A DNA stretch of 26,941 nucleotides from a virus. Below, piece after piece: positions 3,212-26,941 of the stretch. The translations under genes were made by a program, and so were the position numbers. Location of the stretch: positions 1-26,941 of IMG/VR virus record IMGVR_UViG_3300047388_000210; one strand, given 5' to 3'. The number at the start of each line of letters is the position of its first letter. Positions within the stretch are counted from its first letter, which is position 1. The notes under the pieces were generated by a model. That model saw only the letters and a list, made by a program, of their open reading frames with translations. It had not been told where the DNA came from and ran no database searches.

Positions 3212-3421
3212 GTGTTTTACGGCTACTTGGCGGGAGTCCTCGCCGCCACGTACATCCTCGCCGCGTTCGCCTGGGAGGAGGAGGGCGGCGCGAGGGAAAA
3301 CCTGCCCGCGATCGCCTTCGTGAGCCTCCTCTGGCCGATCGTCCTGGCGGTCCTGGCGATGTGGGCCCTGATCTACGGGCCGGGGCTTGTCGTGGAGGCG
3401 CGCCGGAGAGGCCGGCAGTGA
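3212..3421 (+). CDS. Small two-helix membrane protein
   Basis: A 69-aa protein from the GTG at 3212. It has two hydrophobic spans, GVLAATYILAAFAW near the N-terminus and IAFVSLLWPIVLAVLAMWAL in the middle, joined by an acidic loop (EEEGGAREN). It ends in a basic tail (EARRRGRQ) that should stay cytoplasmic. Size and topology fit a holin or a superinfection-exclusion peptide. Its place among early-type accessory genes, away from any lysin, leaves this open. Confidence 0.6.
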   Translation: MFYGYLAGVLAATYILAAFAWEEEGGARENLPAIAFVSLLWPIVLAVLAMWALIYGPGLVVEARRRGRQ

Positions 3422-3816
3422 GCGGTGCCCACCGCCCCGGTTACCGCGCCGAGCGGATCGCCGGAGCGCGCACCGGGGCCCGTGAGGTCAGCCACTGCAC
3501 GGAAAGCGCCTACAACTACGACGGGTGCCGGTGCGAGGAATGCAAGTTCGCCCACTCTTTCGCGCTAGCGCTCAAGCGGGCCAAGCGGAAACTCGCCCAG
3601 GGCATGCCGCTGCACGCGCTGTCAGCGATGGAGCGTGACCGCGTCGAGGACGAGCTGGCCTACCGGGAGGGGCGGCAGTGGTACCGGTGGGACGGCGGCG
3701 AGGACGGCCGGCTGCTGTGTGCGGTCATCCCCCGGTGGGCCGCTGATGGGTGGTTCACGCCACGGCGGACGGTGCTCCAGCAACTAGCCGCTGCGGCGGC
3801 AAACGGTGAGGAGTAA
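3418..3816 (+). CDS. GCRCxxCK-type small phage protein
   Basis: A 132-aa protein from the GTGA overlap at 3418 with GGAGAGG upstream. The frame is open back to 3202, but that part is a shadow of the membrane gene. Residues about 25-40 contain SHCTESAYNYDGCRCEECK, a His/Cys cluster like the HGTxxGYxxHGCRCxxC motif common in actinophage proteins. A basic helix follows (ALALKRAKRKLAQG), then a Trp-rich C-terminal part. It probably binds zinc and nucleic acid. Confidence 0.65.
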   Translation: MSGAHRPGYRAERIAGARTGAREVSHCTESAYNYDGCRCEECKFAHSFALALKRAKRKLAQGMPLHALSAMERDRVEDELAYREGRQWYRWDGGEDGRLLCAVIPRWAADGWFTPRRTVLQQLAAAAANGEE

Positions 3817-11353: not shown

Positions 11354-13693
11354 GTGCCCCTCGCTGATTACCTCCCGTGGAATGTGGCGGAGGCGAAGAA
11401 GCGCAAGCAGGCACCATCAACAGCGCTGGTCCCCGCGACGACTGCCCCGAACCCGGACATCCTGCCGAACCGGACGGGGTTCGTGCAGGGCGTCCCCCGC
11501 GGCGGGTTCGGGGTGGATGCCGCCGAGTCGCAGACCGGCGCGGCGCAGAACACCACCCGGACCGAGTGGCTGCAGGCGCTGTGGGAGGAGTACCTGCGGT
11601 GCCCGTGGGCGTGGGCGTGCGTGAACGTGATCGCAAGGACGGTCACCGCCGGCGGGCTGGGGATGAAGTGGGACGGCGACACCGGCGAGGGCGATGTCAA
11701 GCAGCCCGTCAAGCCCGCCGCGGTGCTGGCGGTGGAGCGGCTGTTCGCCTTCGCCAACCCGGTGCAGGACATCCGCCAGTTGTGCCGCAACATCGTCGCC
11801 GACCTGCAGGTGTTCGGCGGGGCGATGGTGGAGGTCGTGTGGTTCGCCGGAATCCCGGCGGCGCTGTACAACCAGGACTTCCCGACGACCGTCCCGGAGG
11901 CGGACGAGCACGGCAACGTCAAGGGGTACAAGCAGACCACCGAAGACGGCCGCACCGCCAAGTTCCGGGCCGAGCAGATCATCCACATCACCCTCGACTC
12001 CGCCCGGCCGTCCATTTTCGGCATCTCCCCGACCCACGCGGCCGAGGAAAGCATCGTCGCGTGGATGTTCCTGCACGCCTGCGAGAAGGAAGCGGCGAGG
12101 AGGGGCCTGCCGCCGAACATCCACGCGGACCACCCGGCCGGCACCCCCGAAACCGACGTGCAAAGGTGGCAGAACCAGTACGCCACCCGCAACATCGGCC
12201 CGGCGAACATCGGCACGCCGATCGTCACCAAGGGCGGCGGGCATGTCAGCGAACTCCAGCAGACGAAGCTCCCTGACATCCTGCTGGCGAAGAAAGAGGC
12301 CCGCAACGAGATCGTCTCCTCCTACGGTGTCCCGCCGGCGAAGGTGGGGATCATCGAGTCGGGGAACCTCGGCGGCGGCACCGGGAGTGACCAGAACAAG
12401 TCGTTCTGGCTGGACATCATCGCCCCGTCCGCCGCCCTGATCGCCGAGAAACTCCAGTTCGCTATCGCGGTCAAAGGCTTCGGCGTCACCGGCTGGCATG
12501 TCGATTTCGGCGGCGTCGACTACCGCGACGACCAGACCATTGAGAACATCCGCGACATGCGGATGCGCAACGGGTCCTGGACCCGCAACCGGTATGCCGC
12601 CGACATCGGGGAGCCGCCGGTTGAGGGCGGCGACGACGCGGTCCTGGTCGCCCGGCAGGACATCGTGCTGTGGGCGGACATGAAAGCCCGGTCGGCTGCC
12701 TCGGTCGCCGCGCTGGCCCGGCTGGACGCCGTCGACAACCAGGCCGGTGGGCCGCCCCCTGCGGCAGGGACCGGCCGGCCGTCAGGAACCGGCGGGGCAC
12801 GCGATCCCCAGCCGCCGTCCGAGTCCGCAGCCGTCGCCGAGGCGGTGGTGCTGCGGCTGGTGCGCTCCGGCGTGCTCGAGGCCAGGGGCGGCGCGAAGCG
12901 TGCCGCGTACCGGGCGCTCAGGAGTGACTTCCCGCCGGGCGCCGTCGCCTGGGCGAAGGACGCTGACTGGTCCGGGCCGGCGAAAGTGCCGGTGTCCCGA
13001 ATCGACACCTCCAATAAGCAGAACTGGGCCGCCTGGGGCGATGACGCGAACATCAGCCACTTCCGCAAGCAGGTCCGCAAGGGGACGGTGAACCCGGTCA
13101 CGCTGGTCAGGCGGCCGGGCGTCAAGAAACTGCTGATCCCGGACGGGCATCACCGGCTGCTGGCCGCGATGGAGGAAGGCGAGCCGGTCCTCGCCTACAT
13201 CGCCACCGTGGGCACCGTCAAAGGCCCGTGGGACGCGATGCACCGGGCGCAGAGGGCCGGGCCCTCTGAGGCTGCGGAGGCCGTGGCCGAGCACACAGCG
13301 AAGCTGACCGCCCGGCAGCGGGCCTACAACCAGCTCGCCCGCAACTTCGCCGCGAAAGACCTGACCTGGGTGGACGACGCCACCTGGACCGGCCCGGTGA
13401 ACGTCGGCACCGATCAGATCGACTTCGCCGACAAGGACCAGTGGAACGCGCAGGACGACCGGGCGAAGGTGGCCCGGATCAGGAAGCGGATCCGGAAGAC
13501 GGGCGCGATGAAGCCCGCCATCCTCATCCGGGGCCCCGGACATGAGAAGGACGTCATCGCCGACGGCCATCATCATGTCCTCGCCGCGGTCGAGCTTGGG
13601 TTCCCGGTGCGGGCGTACGTGGCCCATGTGAACTCGGCGACGGGCCCCTGGACGACCTTGTCAACCAGGCAGCGCATGGCCCGCGCAGGCTGA
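11354..13693 (+). CDS. HK97-type portal protein with two C-terminal ParB-like domains
   Basis: A 779-aa protein; HK97-type portals are usually 400-500 aa. Residues about 60-480 resemble such a portal: a WACVNVIARTVTAGG helix, a RAEQIIHITLDSARPSIFG strand-loop, and a KKEARNEIVSSYGVPPAKVG segment with a Gly-rich loop after it. After a Pro/Gly linker (about 480-510) come two tandem copies of one domain, about 515-640 and 660-775. Each has W-x-GP, a central IRKG/VRKG-like segment, an R-x-PG turn, and a DGHH motif (D597-GHHR and D737-GHHH, exactly 140 residues apart). This matches the ParB/sulfiredoxin-like domain seen in phage and polymorphic-toxin proteins. In the second copy His replaces the usual Arg. 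Confidence 0.85.
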   Translation: MPLADYLPWNVAEAKKRKQAPSTALVPATTAPNPDILPNRTGFVQGVPRGGFGVDAAESQTGAAQNTTRTEWLQALWEEYLRCPWAWACVNVIARTVTAGGLGMKWDGDTGEGDVKQPVKPAAVLAVERLFAFANPVQDIRQLCRNIVADLQVFGGAMVEVVWFAGIPAALYNQDFPTTVPEADEHGNVKGYKQTTEDGRTAKFRAEQIIHITLDSARPSIFGISPTHAAEESIVAWMFLHACEKEAARRGLPPNIHADHPAGTPETDVQRWQNQYATRNIGPANIGTPIVTKGGGHVSELQQTKLPDILLAKKEARNEIVSSYGVPPAKVGIIESGNLGGGTGSDQNKSFWLDIIAPSAALIAEKLQFAIAVKGFGVTGWHVDFGGVDYRDDQTIENIRDMRMRNGSWTRNRYAADIGEPPVEGGDDAVLVARQDIVLWADMKARSAASVAALARLDAVDNQAGGPPPAAGTGRPSGTGGARDPQPPSESAAVAEAVVLRLVRSGVLEARGGAKRAAYRALRSDFPPGAVAWAKDADWSGPAKVPVSRIDTSNKQNWAAWGDDANISHFRKQVRKGTVNPVTLVRRPGVKKLLIPDGHHRLLAAMEEGEPVLAYIATVGTVKGPWDAMHRAQRAGPSEAAEAVAEHTAKLTARQRAYNQLARNFAAKDLTWVDDATWTGPVNVGTDQIDFADKDQWNAQDDRAKVARIRKRIRKTGAMKPAILIRGPGHEKDVIADGHHHVLAAVELGFPVRAYVAHVNSATGPWTTLSTRQRMARAG

Positions 13694-19784: not shown

Positions 19785-20483
19785 GTGCCTGAAGGCGACA
19801 TCCTGGTCCCGCTGTGCACATACGCCCAGTTCACCGAGGGTGCCTACGCCGACCTGGTCGCCGGGTTCTCCCCGGCCGCGGTCAACGACATCCTGGTCGA
19901 GGCGACCCGGCAGTGCGAGGACCAGACGGGGCGGCGGCTGGCGCCGTTCACGGTCACCGAAACCGGCCGGGTCTCAGGCATCGACCCCAGCGAGTACGCC
20001 ACCAGCACCGGCATGCCCGTGTCCATCCAGGGCACCCTGGGCATGTCCGAAGCGGCGGCCCTGTCGGTGACGAACCTGGTGCGCCACCACTGGCTGCGGG
20101 AGTTCCCGCCCCGCTACCAGGATCTGTGGGCGTACTCGGGCGTCACGGTGAAGATCCTTCGCTCATTCGGCGGCTCCCAGACTCTTGGCACCGGGCAGAT
20201 CCTGTCCGGCCCCGACGACCTGGGGCACATCTGGTTCACCCTCGGCCAGTTCATCCCGGTCGCGTCCTACGCCCAGATCACCTACTCCGGCGGGTACACC
20301 GTGGCCACGCCGGCGTCGCTGCTGCGGGCGTCCAAGTTCCTCGCCGCGTCGATCGCGATTGACGAGCTGAACCCTGAGGACAACGAGCGCGACCCGGACC
20401 GGCTGTACAACCTGGCGCTGCGGTGGCTGGCCCCGTACGCCCGGGAAGGGTCACCCCTGGCCGGGGTGAGGGCGCGGGCATGA
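19785..20483 (+). CDS. Head-tail connector (adaptor) protein
   Basis: A 232-aa protein from the GTG at 19785 behind GGGGAGG. The sequence follows the pattern of gp6/gp15-type adaptors that bind under the portal: an early helix ending in a Cys/Asp turn (ATRQCEDQTGRRLAPFTVTE), a central strand-rich region, and a C-terminal helical bundle (ASKFLAASIAIDELNPEDNE, LYNLALRWLAPY). Position two genes after the capsid agrees. The match is by pattern, so connector is likely but not certain. Confidence 0.65.
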   Translation: MPEGDILVPLCTYAQFTEGAYADLVAGFSPAAVNDILVEATRQCEDQTGRRLAPFTVTETGRVSGIDPSEYATSTGMPVSIQGTLGMSEAAALSVTNLVRHHWLREFPPRYQDLWAYSGVTVKILRSFGGSQTLGTGQILSGPDDLGHIWFTLGQFIPVASYAQITYSGGYTVATPASLLRASKFLAASIAIDELNPEDNERDPDRLYNLALRWLAPYAREGSPLAGVRARA

Positions 20484-20689
20484 GCACCCGCTGCCCGCGC
20501 TGCCTGGATGACGGCATCGTCTGCGAAGAGCACCCCGAATATCCGTGGGACATGACGGTCGAAGGTCACCCGGCCGACTGCGGGCCACCCGGCATACCGT
20601 GCCCAGCGTGCTGCTCGCCGATCCCGGAAGACGGCACGCATTCCATTGCTGAGGCGTTCACGCCGGACTGGCAGCGGGCGCGGGCGTGA
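20480..20689 (+). CDS. Zinc-ribbon small phage protein
   Basis: A 69-aa protein from the ATGA overlap at 20480. CPRCLDDGIVCEEHPEYPW and a later CGPPGIPCPACC give the CxxC...CxxH...C...CxxC pattern of a small protein common in tailed phages. It probably binds one or two zinc ions. Function is unknown. A secreted-enzyme gene follows immediately. Confidence 0.65.
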   Translation: MSTRCPRCLDDGIVCEEHPEYPWDMTVEGHPADCGPPGIPCPACCSPIPEDGTHSIAEAFTPDWQRARA

Positions 20690-20715
20690 GCACCGCTGAC
20701 AAGGAAGGGACGCCC

Positions 20716-22206
20716 ATGAGGCATCAGTTCAAGGCCCTTGTCGTGGCCGCCGCCGCCGTTGCGGCCCTCTCCCTGCTCGCCGTCCCCGCGATGGCAGGTT
20801 CCCCCGCGCACCAGCACGCGCTCTCCAACGGCAGCGCGCCGCTGACCCCCACCTCCGGACTCGTCGGCCTCAAGGACCCCGTGTACACGGTGACGAACGC
20901 TGCAGGTGGCGGCGATGCACTCACCGTCGCCGGCGCGAGGAGCCTGTTCGTCAACAGCGGGGCTAACGTCATCAGCTACGGCGCACCCGACTGCTTCACG
21001 GGCAACACGTGCGGTGACCCGCAGACTAGCTCTTGTGCTACGAATGCGGCCACTGGCTGTCACAACGGGACGGTCAGCCAGGCCAACTTCGAGACACAGC
21101 TTGGGACCATCCTTAAAAGCAGCGCCAACAGCGGCCTGGGGGACCCGAGTATCGTTCTCCAGTTGTTCCCCGTCAATTTCAGCAACGGGACGTGCCCTCC
21201 CGGCACCGCTACGATCTGTGGTTCCAGCTTCTGCCCGACGCTCACCACTCAAGGTGCCGCGAGCCCGTCTTCCACGGAGTGGGGCCTGGACCTGGCGGCG
21301 GACAAGACGATCGTGGACTCGCTCGCTGCCGCGGTGAGCACGACTGGGGTGTCGCCGGCGTACGTGTTCTTGGAGTCGTCCAACGAGGGCGAGAACCAGT
21401 GCTGGTCCAAGTGGGGCTACACCAGCACGGTGCAGACTGGAGTGTCCAAGGCCCTCGGGCACATGTATGCGGCGGTGATGACGGGCACTGGCGGGCTCCT
21501 CACCTATGCCGCTAACGCCCTGCCCGGCTCCGGCGTTGCCGCTGACGGGTACATCGGCACCGCCGGCGGCATCCTCCGGGGCGATTCGTGCGTGACCAAC
21601 GTCAACTTCAGCTACGGCTACAAGTGCACTTTCACCAAGGCGTCTGCGCAGGTGGCCGACTTCAACAACGCGATCAAGACCGACGCAGGCAGCTCTGCGT
21701 ACCCCGGCCTGGAATCCATCCACTCCTACTGCCACAGCCCCGACTTCACCACGACGTCCGGCTACACGCTCGACAACAACGAGTGCTACGCCTACTACAA
21801 CCAGTGGCGGACAATGGCGGCGGGCCAGATCAACACCATCTGGGGTTCCACCGCGGTGAGCCTGATGGGCTTCGGCGTAACCGAGTGGCAGGCCGGGGTG
21901 TGCGGCTCCACCAACGCCACCTGCTGGAGCGGCTTCCAGAACGGCGCGAGCAACGGCACGGCCACGTACGACAGCGGCTTCTGGACAATGCTCACCGGCA
22001 ACAGCACCTTTTTCGGCACCACGGGCACGGCATACTTCCTCCAGGTGCAGTTCGATGATGCCGGGAACGCTGACGGCCAGGGTCTTCCTGGCGCGCCAGA
22101 CAACAACGCGCACCCCTCAGGCAACTACAACGTGATCCAGGAGGCCGGAACAAAGGGGGAGGGTTACACGGCCTTCTGCAATGCCGGAGCAGGAACTGGC
22201 TGCTAG
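20716..22206 (+). CDS. Secreted glycoside-hydrolase-like protein (clan GH-A pattern)
   Basis: A 496-aa protein read from the ATG at 20716 behind AAGGAAGGGA; a GTG at 20686 is the alternative. Residues 1-27 are a clear Sec signal peptide: basic MRHQFK, a hydrophobic stretch of Ala/Val/Leu, and AMA as cleavage site. The mature part has 16 Cys, likely disulfide-bonded. VFLESSNEGE with N223-E224 and GFGVTEWQ with E390 fit the acid/base and nucleophile of TIM-barrel GH-A glycosidases, and IHSYCH lies between them. A substrate cannot be read. An exported enzyme is unusual among connector and tail genes. Confidence 0.6.
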   Translation: MRHQFKALVVAAAAVAALSLLAVPAMAGSPAHQHALSNGSAPLTPTSGLVGLKDPVYTVTNAAGGGDALTVAGARSLFVNSGANVISYGAPDCFTGNTCGDPQTSSCATNAATGCHNGTVSQANFETQLGTILKSSANSGLGDPSIVLQLFPVNFSNGTCPPGTATICGSSFCPTLTTQGAASPSSTEWGLDLAADKTIVDSLAAAVSTTGVSPAYVFLESSNEGENQCWSKWGYTSTVQTGVSKALGHMYAAVMTGTGGLLTYAANALPGSGVAADGYIGTAGGILRGDSCVTNVNFSYGYKCTFTKASAQVADFNNAIKTDAGSSAYPGLESIHSYCHSPDFTTTSGYTLDNNECYAYYNQWRTMAAGQINTIWGSTAVSLMGFGVTEWQAGVCGSTNATCWSGFQNGASNGTATYDSGFWTMLTGNSTFFGTTGTAYFLQVQFDDAGNADGQGLPGAPDNNAHPSGNYNVIQEAGTKGEGYTAFCNAGAGTGC

Positions 22207-22274: not shown

Positions 22275-22787
22275 GTGACCACAGCCGACGCGGAAGCCCG
22301 CGAGGCGGCGTGGCTCGCGACCACCACCGACACGCTGCCCGCCCTGCTTGCCACCGCTGGCGGCCCGTTTGAGATCGTGCAGGCGTTCTGGCCGGGGGCG
22401 AAGTTCGCGGCGAGGCGGAACGCGGTCTACGTGCAGCGGACCCGGGCCATCATGCCCCGGTTCGGCGGCCGGCGGATCATGCCCGGCTACCAGTTCCTGC
22501 TCAAGATCGTGTGGCCGCTGAAAGCCACCGTGGCGGGGATCGCCGAAACCGAGGCGCAGAACCTCGCCAACGCCGTTGAGTTGCTGCTCCAGCGGATCGA
22601 CGGCCTCCCGGGCGACAAGACCCACAATGGCCGGTTCCTGTCCGCCGGGGAAGGCCTGGAGGGCACTTCGCTGGCCGGCTTGCACCCGGTGGTGGACTTC
22701 CTTGACCCCGAGGTGACGATCCCGCAGAACGGGTGGCTGCGCGCGCAGATCACCTACCCGGCGAACGATGTCGAGATTCTGGGCTGA
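22275..22787 (+). CDS. Tail-terminator/tail-completion-like protein
   Basis: A 170-aa protein from the GTG at 22275 behind GAAGGGA. It has a long helix (AEAREAAWLATTTDTLPALL), a basic centre, a second helix (EAQNLANAVELLLQRIDGLP) and a final strand with WLRAQITYPANDVEIL. This helix-plus-sheet arrangement and position after the connector are what is expected of a tail-terminator or head-tail joining protein. No catalytic motif. The assignment is by context and shape only. Confidence 0.5.
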   Translation: MTTADAEAREAAWLATTTDTLPALLATAGGPFEIVQAFWPGAKFAARRNAVYVQRTRAIMPRFGGRRIMPGYQFLLKIVWPLKATVAGIAETEAQNLANAVELLLQRIDGLPGDKTHNGRFLSAGEGLEGTSLAGLHPVVDFLDPEVTIPQNGWLRAQITYPANDVEILG

Positions 22788-24579: not shown

Positions 24580-26941
24580 ATGGGGAGCCTCTCCAACACC
24601 GTTGACGGCACCAGCGGGACCGCGATCAGCAACGCCAACTCCGCTGGCCCCAACCAGTTCAACACGGTCTCAGTCACCGGCACCGGCACCACCCTCACCT
24701 ACGACACCGCCCACGTCCACGCGGGCAGCACCGCAGCCAAGTTCAGCCTGGCCGCGATCTCCTCCACCGCGTACCTCGACTGGTCGGCGCTGCCCACCAC
24801 GCCATCGGCGAATGTTTACGTCCGGTTCTACGCCTACCTGACGGCGCTGCCGTCAGCGAACACTGTGCTGGCGAAGTTCCTCAACGGGGCCGCCGTCGAG
24901 TCTTCGATCCAGTTGCAGACGACGGGCATCGTCCGCACCCTTAACAACGCCGGTGGCACGCTGGGGTCGCTGACCGAGTCGTTCCCGCTGAACCAGTGGG
25001 TGCGGGTCGAGTTCGAGGTCACCGGCATTACGACTACCACCTCGACAACGGTGGCGTGCCGGATCTTCTCCGGCGCCAACCTGGAGACCAGCACCCCGGA
25101 CACCGGCGGGTCGGTCTCCACCGCGGGCACCAGCCTGTCCGGCACGGTCACCGACCTGCGCGTCGGCACCTCGTCGGCGGTGGTGGAGACCAGCACATTC
25201 ACCTACTGGCTCGATGACATCGCTTACAGCGATGTCGCCACTCCCGGCCCGCAAGCACTGGCGCTTGTGCGGGCCGCGCCGCTGCCGCTGCCGCCGGCAG
25301 TGCCCGTGCAGCAGCCCCGTATTGTCGGCGTCCCGGCCGGGGCGTTCACCGCCGTGGCGGCCCTGTCCGGCTCCGGCACCCTCACCGCGTCGCCGGTGTT
25401 CGCTGGGACCGCCGCCCTGACCGGCACGGGCACGCTGACAGTGGCCGCGCCCGGAATCGCCGGGCTGCCGGTCACCCAGGCAGTGGCACAGCCGCCCCGC
25501 CCTGCCCCGCCGCCGCCCGGGCAGATCATCGGGCCGGCTGTGCTGGCGGTCGCCGGTGCTGCATCGCTCACCGGTTCCGGCACCCTGACCGCGAGCCCCG
25601 TGTTCGCCGGCTCTGCGGCCCTGACCGGTTCGGGCACACTGACCGCCGCGCCAAGCGTGGGCGGCCCGATCGGCGCCATCCAGGCGGTTCGCGCCCAGCC
25701 TGGGCCCGCCCAGCCACCCCCGCCGCAGATCATCGGCAGCACGCCCCCCGCCCCGCCGGGCACCGCCGCCCTGTCGGGCTCGGGCACGCTGACGGCGGCC
25801 CCGGTATTCACCGGCACGGCCACCCTGACGGGCTCCGGCACCCTGACGGCAGCCCCCGCCTTCACTGCCACCGCCGCCCTGTCCGGGACCGGCACGCTAT
25901 CGGCCGCACCCGTGTTCGCTGCCGCGGCCGCCCTGTCCGGCTCGGGCACCTTGGCCGCCGCGCCCGTCTTCACCGCCGCCGCCACCCTGTCCGGTTCCGG
26001 CACGCTCACCGCCGTCTCCACGGTCACGGCCCCAGTGCCGTCGGTGATCATCCAGGCTCCCGCCGCGCCACGCGCCCCGCCACCGCCACCGTCGCCGCAG
26101 ATCATCCCAGCGGTGCAGAACCAGTTGTTCGTCGTCGTCGTCGCCGACATGCAGCCCGGAGGGGGCGTCAACCCGCCGCCTTCGGTGGTCGGCGCCCAGG
26201 TCGCCGGGCTGAACCCCGCGCCCGACCTGGTGCTGATGCCCGGCGACCTGGCCAACGACGGCACCACCGCCCAGTACGGCTTCTTCAACACCATGTACGG
26301 GAGCCTGCTGTCCAGGATTTTCCCCGTCCCGGGCAACCACGACTGGGTGCCAGGGAACCTGACCCAGTACGACACGTACTTCGGCAGCCAGGACTCCCCG
26401 CCGCATTACTTCAGCTTCAACACCGCCAACGGCTGGCACATCATCGGCCTGGAGTCCGACGCCGCCGCCGTGGGCGCGCCGAACATCGGCACCACCCAGT
26501 ACAACTGGCTCGCCGCCGACCTGGCCGCGAACCGGGGCAAGCCGATTCTCGCGTTCTGGCATCACCCGCGCTGGTCTGACGGCACCAACGCCGCCGACCC
26601 GGGCGGCACCAACGACTCGGTCGTCATGCGCGACCCGTGGAACCTGCTCCGGGCATACGCTGCCGACCTGGTGATGGTCGGGCACTGCCACTCCTACCAG
26701 CGGTTCCCGAAATGGGATGCTAACGCCAGCGCCGACCCGCTGGGCATCGCCGAGTTCGTCGTCGGCACCGGCGGTTCCGGGCTGTTCACGCTGAACTCGA
26801 CGCAGCGGTCGGTGGTGAACTCCTACCAGGCCGCTGCGTATGACCAGCTCAACAGCCAGTGGTTCGGCTACCTGAAACTGTGGCTGACCGAGTCGTCGTA
26901 CTCGTGGCAGTTCATCTCCCAGAACGCCGCCGGCAGCCAGA
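24580..26941 (+). CDS. Modular virion-type protein: lectin-like, 18-aa repeats, metallophosphoesterase (3' end missing)
   Basis: Open from the ATG at 24580 to the end of the window (787 codons). Residues 1-213 read as a LamG/concanavalin-like jelly roll ending in YWLDDIAYSD. Residues about 215-510 alternate Pro-rich linkers with nine 18-residue repeats of the GSGTLTAAPVF type. Residues about 515-787 are a calcineurin-like/purple-acid-phosphatase-type metallophosphoesterase: D523 (ADMQ), D556 (GDLAND), N586-H587 (GNHD), H661/H662 (WHHP) and H702/H704 (GHCHSYQR). The first motif is DMQ, not DxH. It probably acts on a phosphoester in the host envelope, as a tail or fiber enzyme; this is inferred. 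No signal peptide is seen. Confidence 0.8.
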   Translation, partial: MGSLSNTVDGTSGTAISNANSAGPNQFNTVSVTGTGTTLTYDTAHVHAGSTAAKFSLAAISSTAYLDWSALPTTPSANVYVRFYAYLTALPSANTVLAKFLNGAAVESSIQLQTTGIVRTLNNAGGTLGSLTESFPLNQWVRVEFEVTGITTTTSTTVACRIFSGANLETSTPDTGGSVSTAGTSLSGTVTDLRVGTSSAVVETSTFTYWLDDIAYSDVATPGPQALALVRAAPLPLPPAVPVQQPRIVGVPAGAFTAVAALSGSGTLTASPVFAGTAALTGTGTLTVAAPGIAGLPVTQAVAQPPRPAPPPPGQIIGPAVLAVAGAASLTGSGTLTASPVFAGSAALTGSGTLTAAPSVGGPIGAIQAVRAQPGPAQPPPPQIIGSTPPAPPGTAALSGSGTLTAAPVFTGTATLTGSGTLTAAPAFTATAALSGTGTLSAAPVFAAAAALSGSGTLAAAPVFTAAATLSGSGTLTAVSTVTAPVPSVIIQAPAAPRAPPPPPSPQIIPAVQNQLFVVVVADMQPGGGVNPPPSVVGAQVAGLNPAPDLVLMPGDLANDGTTAQYGFFNTMYGSLLSRIFPVPGNHDWVPGNLTQYDTYFGSQDSPPHYFSFNTANGWHIIGLESDAAAVGAPNIGTTQYNWLAADLAANRGKPILAFWHHPRWSDGTNAADPGGTNDSVVMRDPWNLLRAYAADLVMVGHCHSYQRFPKWDANASADPLGIAEFVVGTGGSGLFTLNSTQRSVVNSYQAAAYDQLNSQWFGYLKLWLTESSYSWQFISQNAAGSQ
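25357..26034 (+). repeat. Nine 54-bp repeats in a 204-bp higher-order array
   Basis: Copies of an 18-codon unit (consensus near AALSGSGTLTAAPVFTGT) lie at 25357-25464 (two), 25561-25668 (two) and 25765-26034 (five). The intervening linkers are both exactly 96 bp, so pairs recur every 204 bp. The linkers share QAV...QPP...PPP and QIIG-type ends. Copies differ at synonymous positions, so this is an old or selected array and not a recent slip. Confidence 0.85.

Follow-up and report, generated by a model that had tools for sequence, protein, structure and literature searches.

Active glycosidases have been found in soil viruses. Peat viruses carry an active GH5 endomannanase (PMC6786970), and an active viral chitosanase has also been described from soil viruses (PMC9485262). 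Here, we analyzed a gene for a secreted, glycosidase-like protein that lies among the structural genes of a phage. The window, that is, the whole stretch of DNA that was analyzed, is the 26,941-base viral record IMGVR_UViG_3300047388_000210. Its genes follow in the order terminase, portal, protease, major head protein, head-tail adaptor, 69-aa Cys-rich ORF, secreted gene, 170-aa conserved gene and tail genes (Table 1). The earlier note on this DNA had placed the secreted gene between the connector and a tail-terminator-like gene. The upstream part of this placement holds, with the adaptor matching phrog_442. The downstream gene resembles a tail terminator only in its position, and its 170-aa product gave zero matches to named families.

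Table 1. Features of the secreted gene and its surroundings (window positions unless a related locus is named)
Feature	Position	Strand	Basis or remark
Secreted Cys-rich glycosidase-like cargo gene (496 aa, P0001)	20716..22206	+	ORF, coding GC pattern, Shine-Dalgarno, homologues
Head-tail adaptor, left flank	19785..20483	+	phrog_442, E 1.7e-5; kept in relatives
Small Cys-rich ORF (69 aa), second insert in adaptor/tail-gene slot	20480..20689	+	not at this position in closest relatives
Conserved tail gene (170 aa), right flank	22275..22787	+	tail-terminator-like by position; next conserved gene after adaptor in all resolved relatives
Insertion scar: left copy of downstream-gene start, GTGAGCACCGCTGAC (VSTAD)	20686..20700	+	14/15 bases identical to L050
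Right, functional copy of gene start, GTGACCACAGCCGAC (VTTAD)	22275..22289	+	start of 170-aa downstream gene
Sec signal peptide, residues 1-27, predicted cleavage AMA/GSP	20716..20796	+	direct reading, hydropathy; export signals in homologues
N223-E224, candidate acid/base	21382..21387	+	invariant in three homologues
H336-S-Y338, candidate active-site motif (GH-A HxY, strand 6)	21721..21729	+	invariant within HSYCHSPDF
E390-W391, candidate nucleophile	21883..21888	+	invariant in three homologues
Basic slot proteins, some NUMOD3 (PF07460, E 1e-13)	L075:20031-20642; L043:16825-17403		same slot in many relatives

A search with the terminase gave 45 related viral loci, and sequenced bacterial genomes contained a further 27. 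Of these bacterial loci, the prophage L068 in a Streptosporangiaceae MAG is the closest, and others lie in Streptomyces, Kitasatospora and Catenulispora. Since several related loci sit in large chromosomal contigs, the phage group includes temperate members. The virus is best explained as a siphovirus-like phage of soil-type actinobacteria, with hosts in the Streptosporangiaceae or near kin. Other genes of the window also gave matches. The C-terminal extension of the portal protein (11354-13693) matches ParB-like proteins (phrog_1033, residues 544-608, E 2e-7); tblastn matches reach this extension in some relatives (L050, L056 and L004) and stop short of it in others. The product of 8010-8684 matches a phage family annotated as enoyl-CoA hydratase-like (phrog_1128, E 2e-12). 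The tail- or fibre-like protein encoded at 24580-26940 has GSGTLTA repeats and a calcineurin-like metallophosphoesterase domain (residues 545-706; PF00149, E 6e-11).

In relatives, the 170-aa protein usually begins with [VM]STADAV or a close variant. It turned out that the window holds two copies of this gene start, which stand exactly on either side of the secreted gene. Among 890 plus-strand start codons, only those at 20686 and 22275 are followed by [ST][ST][AS]D, and the minus strand has none. The left copy, GTGAGCACCGCTGAC, overlaps the stop codon of the 69-aa ORF (GTGA), and this ORF overlaps the adaptor stop codon (ATGA). In the closest resolved relatives, L050 and L056, the adaptor and the downstream gene themselves overlap via GTGA. 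The stretch from the adaptor to the 170-aa gene is resolved in about 30 distinct relatives, and the secreted gene is absent from all of these slots as well as from the 35 related phage records. Because the flanking genes overlap in L050 and L056, the gene start is doubled and the relatives lack the gene, we regard the secreted gene as almost certainly inserted cargo. The suggested comparison of synteny did show an insertion: the gene is extra between genes that are adjacent in L050 and L056, and the scar lies in the window. The simplest reading of the order of events is that the 69-aa ORF came first, and the secreted gene would then have inserted where the tail gene begins, leaving the duplicated start. 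A host gene joined by error into the viral contig during assembly would be consistent with the single occurrence of the gene and with the lack of a second contig carrying the junction. However, the conserved phage genes on both sides, the overlap and scar of the downstream gene and the Shine-Dalgarno sequence make such a chimera extremely improbable.

The same slot varies in its contents among the relatives. About eleven of them have little or nothing in the slot (<90 bases). Most of the others have a Lys/Arg/His-rich protein there (about 40% K/R/H). NUMOD3 repeats were detected in two tested slot proteins, and one other tested protein was without them. NUMOD3 is normally tied to homing endonucleases; no nuclease gene was noticed in the slots with the NUMOD3-type basic proteins. 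Possibly, the basic proteins are a DNA-binding part of the connector or cargo specific to this slot. In L051 (14162-16786), the slot also contains 2.6 kb of DNA with a group of reverse-strand genes, among them DUF6221 (E 5e-29), and in L083 it encodes a membrane-protein-like product. The small Cys-rich protein of the 69-aa ORF (CPRCLDDGIVCEEHPEYPW...PCPACC) is encoded 3' of the adaptor in the window, and a similar protein 5' of the adaptor in L169 (about 3400-3620); judging from these positions, it seems to be mobile. We also considered the 69-aa ORF as a fixed partner of the secreted gene, and the similar protein elsewhere in L169 argues against this. For the phage biology, these data mark the connector/tail junction as a hot spot of insertion in a widespread group of actinobacterial phages, here with an insertion scar.

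The secreted gene extends from the ATG at 20716 to the TAG at 22206 (496 codons). An alternative in-frame GTG at 20686 would give a protein of 506 aa. The ATG is closely preceded by a strong Shine-Dalgarno sequence, AAGGAAGGG. The GC content is 0.85 at the third codon position versus 0.54-0.57 at the other two; therefore, the frame is coding. High third-position GC is also the pattern of nearly all neighbour genes. An overlapping 515-aa ORF on the minus strand does not have this pattern.

The phage protein has no significant match in Pfam, NCBIfam, PHROGs or PDB. In Pfam, there were zero matches up to E 1 for the phage protein and up to E 10 for its homologues. Relatives of the protein were also not found in viral contigs and genome contigs, nor, by tblastn, in phages and plasmids. 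We searched 341 genomes from the family of the closest prophage host, and one genome, G104 (Streptosporangiaceae), contained two homologues with E values of 3e-46 and 2e-44. These are L098:1345-2571 and L100:1429-2778, both matched over the full length. The homologues have 409 and 450 aa with an N-terminal signal peptide or lipobox-like signal; they are 57% identical to each other, and in the multiple alignment each shares about 37% identity with the phage protein. They share with the phage protein the export signal, the invariant NE, HSYCHSPDF and EW, and 8 Cys. In contrast to the phage gene, they are chromosomal, and their products are without its extra loops and three extra Cys pairs. Further Actinomycetota genome samples gave no more homologues, in a search where few candidates were scored per genome in most samples and weak relatives may be missed. 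The protein family is rare in the genomes sampled. The candidates L095, L099 and L104 were rejected as homologues because their match covers little beyond the signal peptide. The match L097 lies in a longer protein whose start resembles a FAD-binding enzyme. The gene L098 adjoins a GH65 phosphorylase, a HAD hydrolase and a berberine-type oxidase. L100 is located among housekeeping genes, just after a Collar-domain protein. In that region of the bacterial chromosome, the gene directly 5' of L100 (L102:8607-9251) encodes a protein with a phage Tail Collar domain (PF07484) whose N-terminus has a hydrophobic stretch. G104 belongs to the same family as the genome that contains the closest prophage, L068. 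The best explanation would be that the secreted gene was acquired from the host gene pool (Streptosporangiaceae or near kin).

The N-terminus of the phage protein reads directly as MRHQFK, the hydrophobic stretch ALVVAAAAVAALSLLAV and PAMA/GSP, where the slash marks the predicted cleavage site. The 12-residue mean Kyte-Doolittle hydropathy in this signal peptide reaches 2.7. All 16 Cys are in the mature part, where they make up 3.4% of 469 residues, versus 0.9% in 15 other ORFs of the window. Eight Cys are shared by all three homologous proteins, and C396/C403 are common to the phage protein and L098. The six Cys found only in the phage protein fall into three pairs at a spacing of 8 residues (107/115, 160/168 and 488/496). 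The Sec signal peptide and the 16 Cys described in the earlier note are therefore both present in the sequence. Its view of an exported, disulfide-type protein outside the conserved virion set also agrees with the signal peptide, the Cys content and the relatives that do without the gene. We consider export of the phage protein very probable, and the protein is not expected to be part of the virion. The location of the gene between connector and tail genes would also suit a depolymerase built into the tail, with an N-terminal hydrophobic stretch that does not work as a signal peptide. But the signal peptide is of the textbook type, chromosomal homologues with no virion block around them have an export signal as well, the protein has many Cys, and every relative with this connector lacks the gene. 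A tail-associated depolymerase is thus very unlikely.

We then consider whether the exported protein may be an enzyme. A GH-A-like pair of NE and TEW had been proposed, and the residue numbers given for it were correct: E224 is in SSNEGE, and E390 is in VTEWQAG. Between them lies the HSY motif, and we take HxY to correspond to strand 6 of GH5. Since NE, HxY, EW and 8 Cys are kept in the homologues, they are not chance features. The order NE, HxY, E is the same in GH5/GH39 domains. The H-to-E spacing is 54 in the phage protein versus 27-61 in GH5/GH39 domains of similar genomes, and the NE-to-H spacing is 103-112 in the family of the phage protein versus 55-98 in such domains. Permutation of the conserved columns reproduced the order and spacing of NE...HxY...E in 57/200,000 cases, in a post hoc test set up after the motifs were seen. 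The AlphaFold2 model of the three sequences has very low confidence (pLDDT 35, pTM 0.33). Almost without exception, its VIA matches are TIM barrels, many of which are glycosidases (GH138, GH5 and GH18 enzymes among them), and the best Z of 6.5 is below the informative range of the tool. The control model of the single sequence gave a best Z of 3.3 and zero TIM-barrel matches. In the low-confidence model (pLDDT 35), a predicted strand at residues 216-221 precedes N223-E224. Foldseek found no significant match in PDB and BFVD.

Profile comparison with GH5 and GH39 gave nothing. In hhalign, the probability was 0.2 for GH5 (PF00150) and 0.1 for GH39 (PF01229), within the range of column shuffles. 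As a positive control, sets of three GH39 sequences that are about as divergent recover GH5 at about 95%. PF01229 had no match in G104, which carries both homologues, and the Arg and His residues usual on early GH5 strands were not identified in the phage protein. Membership in GH5 or GH39 was rejected, since there is no Pfam match and the profile comparison is null although the control works. What stands of the proposed GH-A-like glycosidase is the invariant NE/HxY/EW and the TIM-barrel-type matches of a low-confidence model; what does not is a profile link to GH5 or GH39. We lean slightly towards a carbohydrate-active TIM barrel, and a GH-A-like retaining glycosidase is plausible, not proven. 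The missing profile link to the tested GH families and the poor model (pLDDT 35) would also fit exported cargo of another kind, namely a protein rich in disulfides that binds or blocks (for example, as a surface decoy or against superinfection) and in which NE/HxY/EW are structural. The Collar-domain protein beside the homologue L100 is consistent with it too. However, the invariant acidic, His and Tyr residues stand in catalytic order and spacing that arose in so few of the permutations (57/200,000), and the structural matches are to TIM barrels only once the homologues are included. Such a protein is conceivable, yet we consider it unlikely.

The secreted gene is co-directional with the structural genes and tightly spaced among them. 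On the plus strand between 19700 and 23500, we found no promoter or terminator of its own in a scan for the sigma-70 consensus and simple hairpins, which has limited power. Therefore, the gene probably rides on the late transcript, and late expression may be assumed from the layout alone. The proposal that the gene is a moron is partly retained: it is an extra gene between otherwise adjacent virion genes, and its own promoter or terminator was not found in this interval. The position in the late structural operon and the absence of detected expression signals of its own also speak against a glycosidase AMG for carbon gain, which would degrade plant or microbial soil polysaccharide for the host rather than serve release or exclusion. 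That soil viruses encode active glycosidases (PMC6786970, PMC9485262), and that the homologue L098 neighbours GH65 and HAD hydrolase genes, speak for such an AMG. We regard it as rather unlikely.

Host-derived late-operon cargo that encodes an exported retaining glycosidase acting outside the cell is our best overall explanation, and we give it an even chance. The gene would be made late together with the virion genes, or leakily in the lysogen. The host Sec system would export its product, with cleavage after residue 27, and up to eight disulfides would stabilize the mature form. Outside the cell, the mature protein may work as a (beta/alpha)8 glycosidase of the retaining type, in which E224 would be the acid/base and E390 the nucleophile, and its target may be a polysaccharide of the host surface or the environment. 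Most probably, the phage would benefit through the clearing of an extracellular glycan that impedes the release of progeny or keeps hold of them, or through additional carbon supplied to its host during infection or lysogeny. Each particular purpose, taken by itself, is unlikely. It is improbable, in the strongest version, that the protein founds a new clan GH-A-like family and, made late and exported by Sec before lysis, strips a glycan to free progeny as a phage counterpart of a receptor-destroying enzyme. The family is undescribed in the libraries used, and its conserved residues allow a direct mutational test. If the protein is active, the phage would encode a glycosidase that is made with the virion genes and exported by the host, and this raises the question of which glycan needs removal. 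If it is inactive as an enzyme, the gene would be an ordinary host-derived cargo gene.

Compared with clan GH-A (GH5, PF00150; GH39, PF01229), the phage protein has the same order and spacing of NE, HxY and E and a low-confidence TIM-barrel-like model, but it has neither a Pfam match nor a profile-profile match. Like morons and lysogenic conversion genes, the secreted gene is an extra gene between otherwise adjacent virion genes and is missing in close relatives; unlike them, it is without a detected promoter or terminator of its own. The soil viral GH5 endomannanase and chitosanase belong to recognised GH families and their activity was shown, whereas the enzyme considered here is putative and has no Pfam or NCBIfam match. 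In both cases, the candidate glycosidase is flanked on both sides by viral hallmark genes, here by the terminase, portal, head protein and adaptor upstream and the conserved tail gene downstream. Thus, viral glycosidases from soil already have precedent, and the novelty lies in the protein family and in the location of the gene within the late block.
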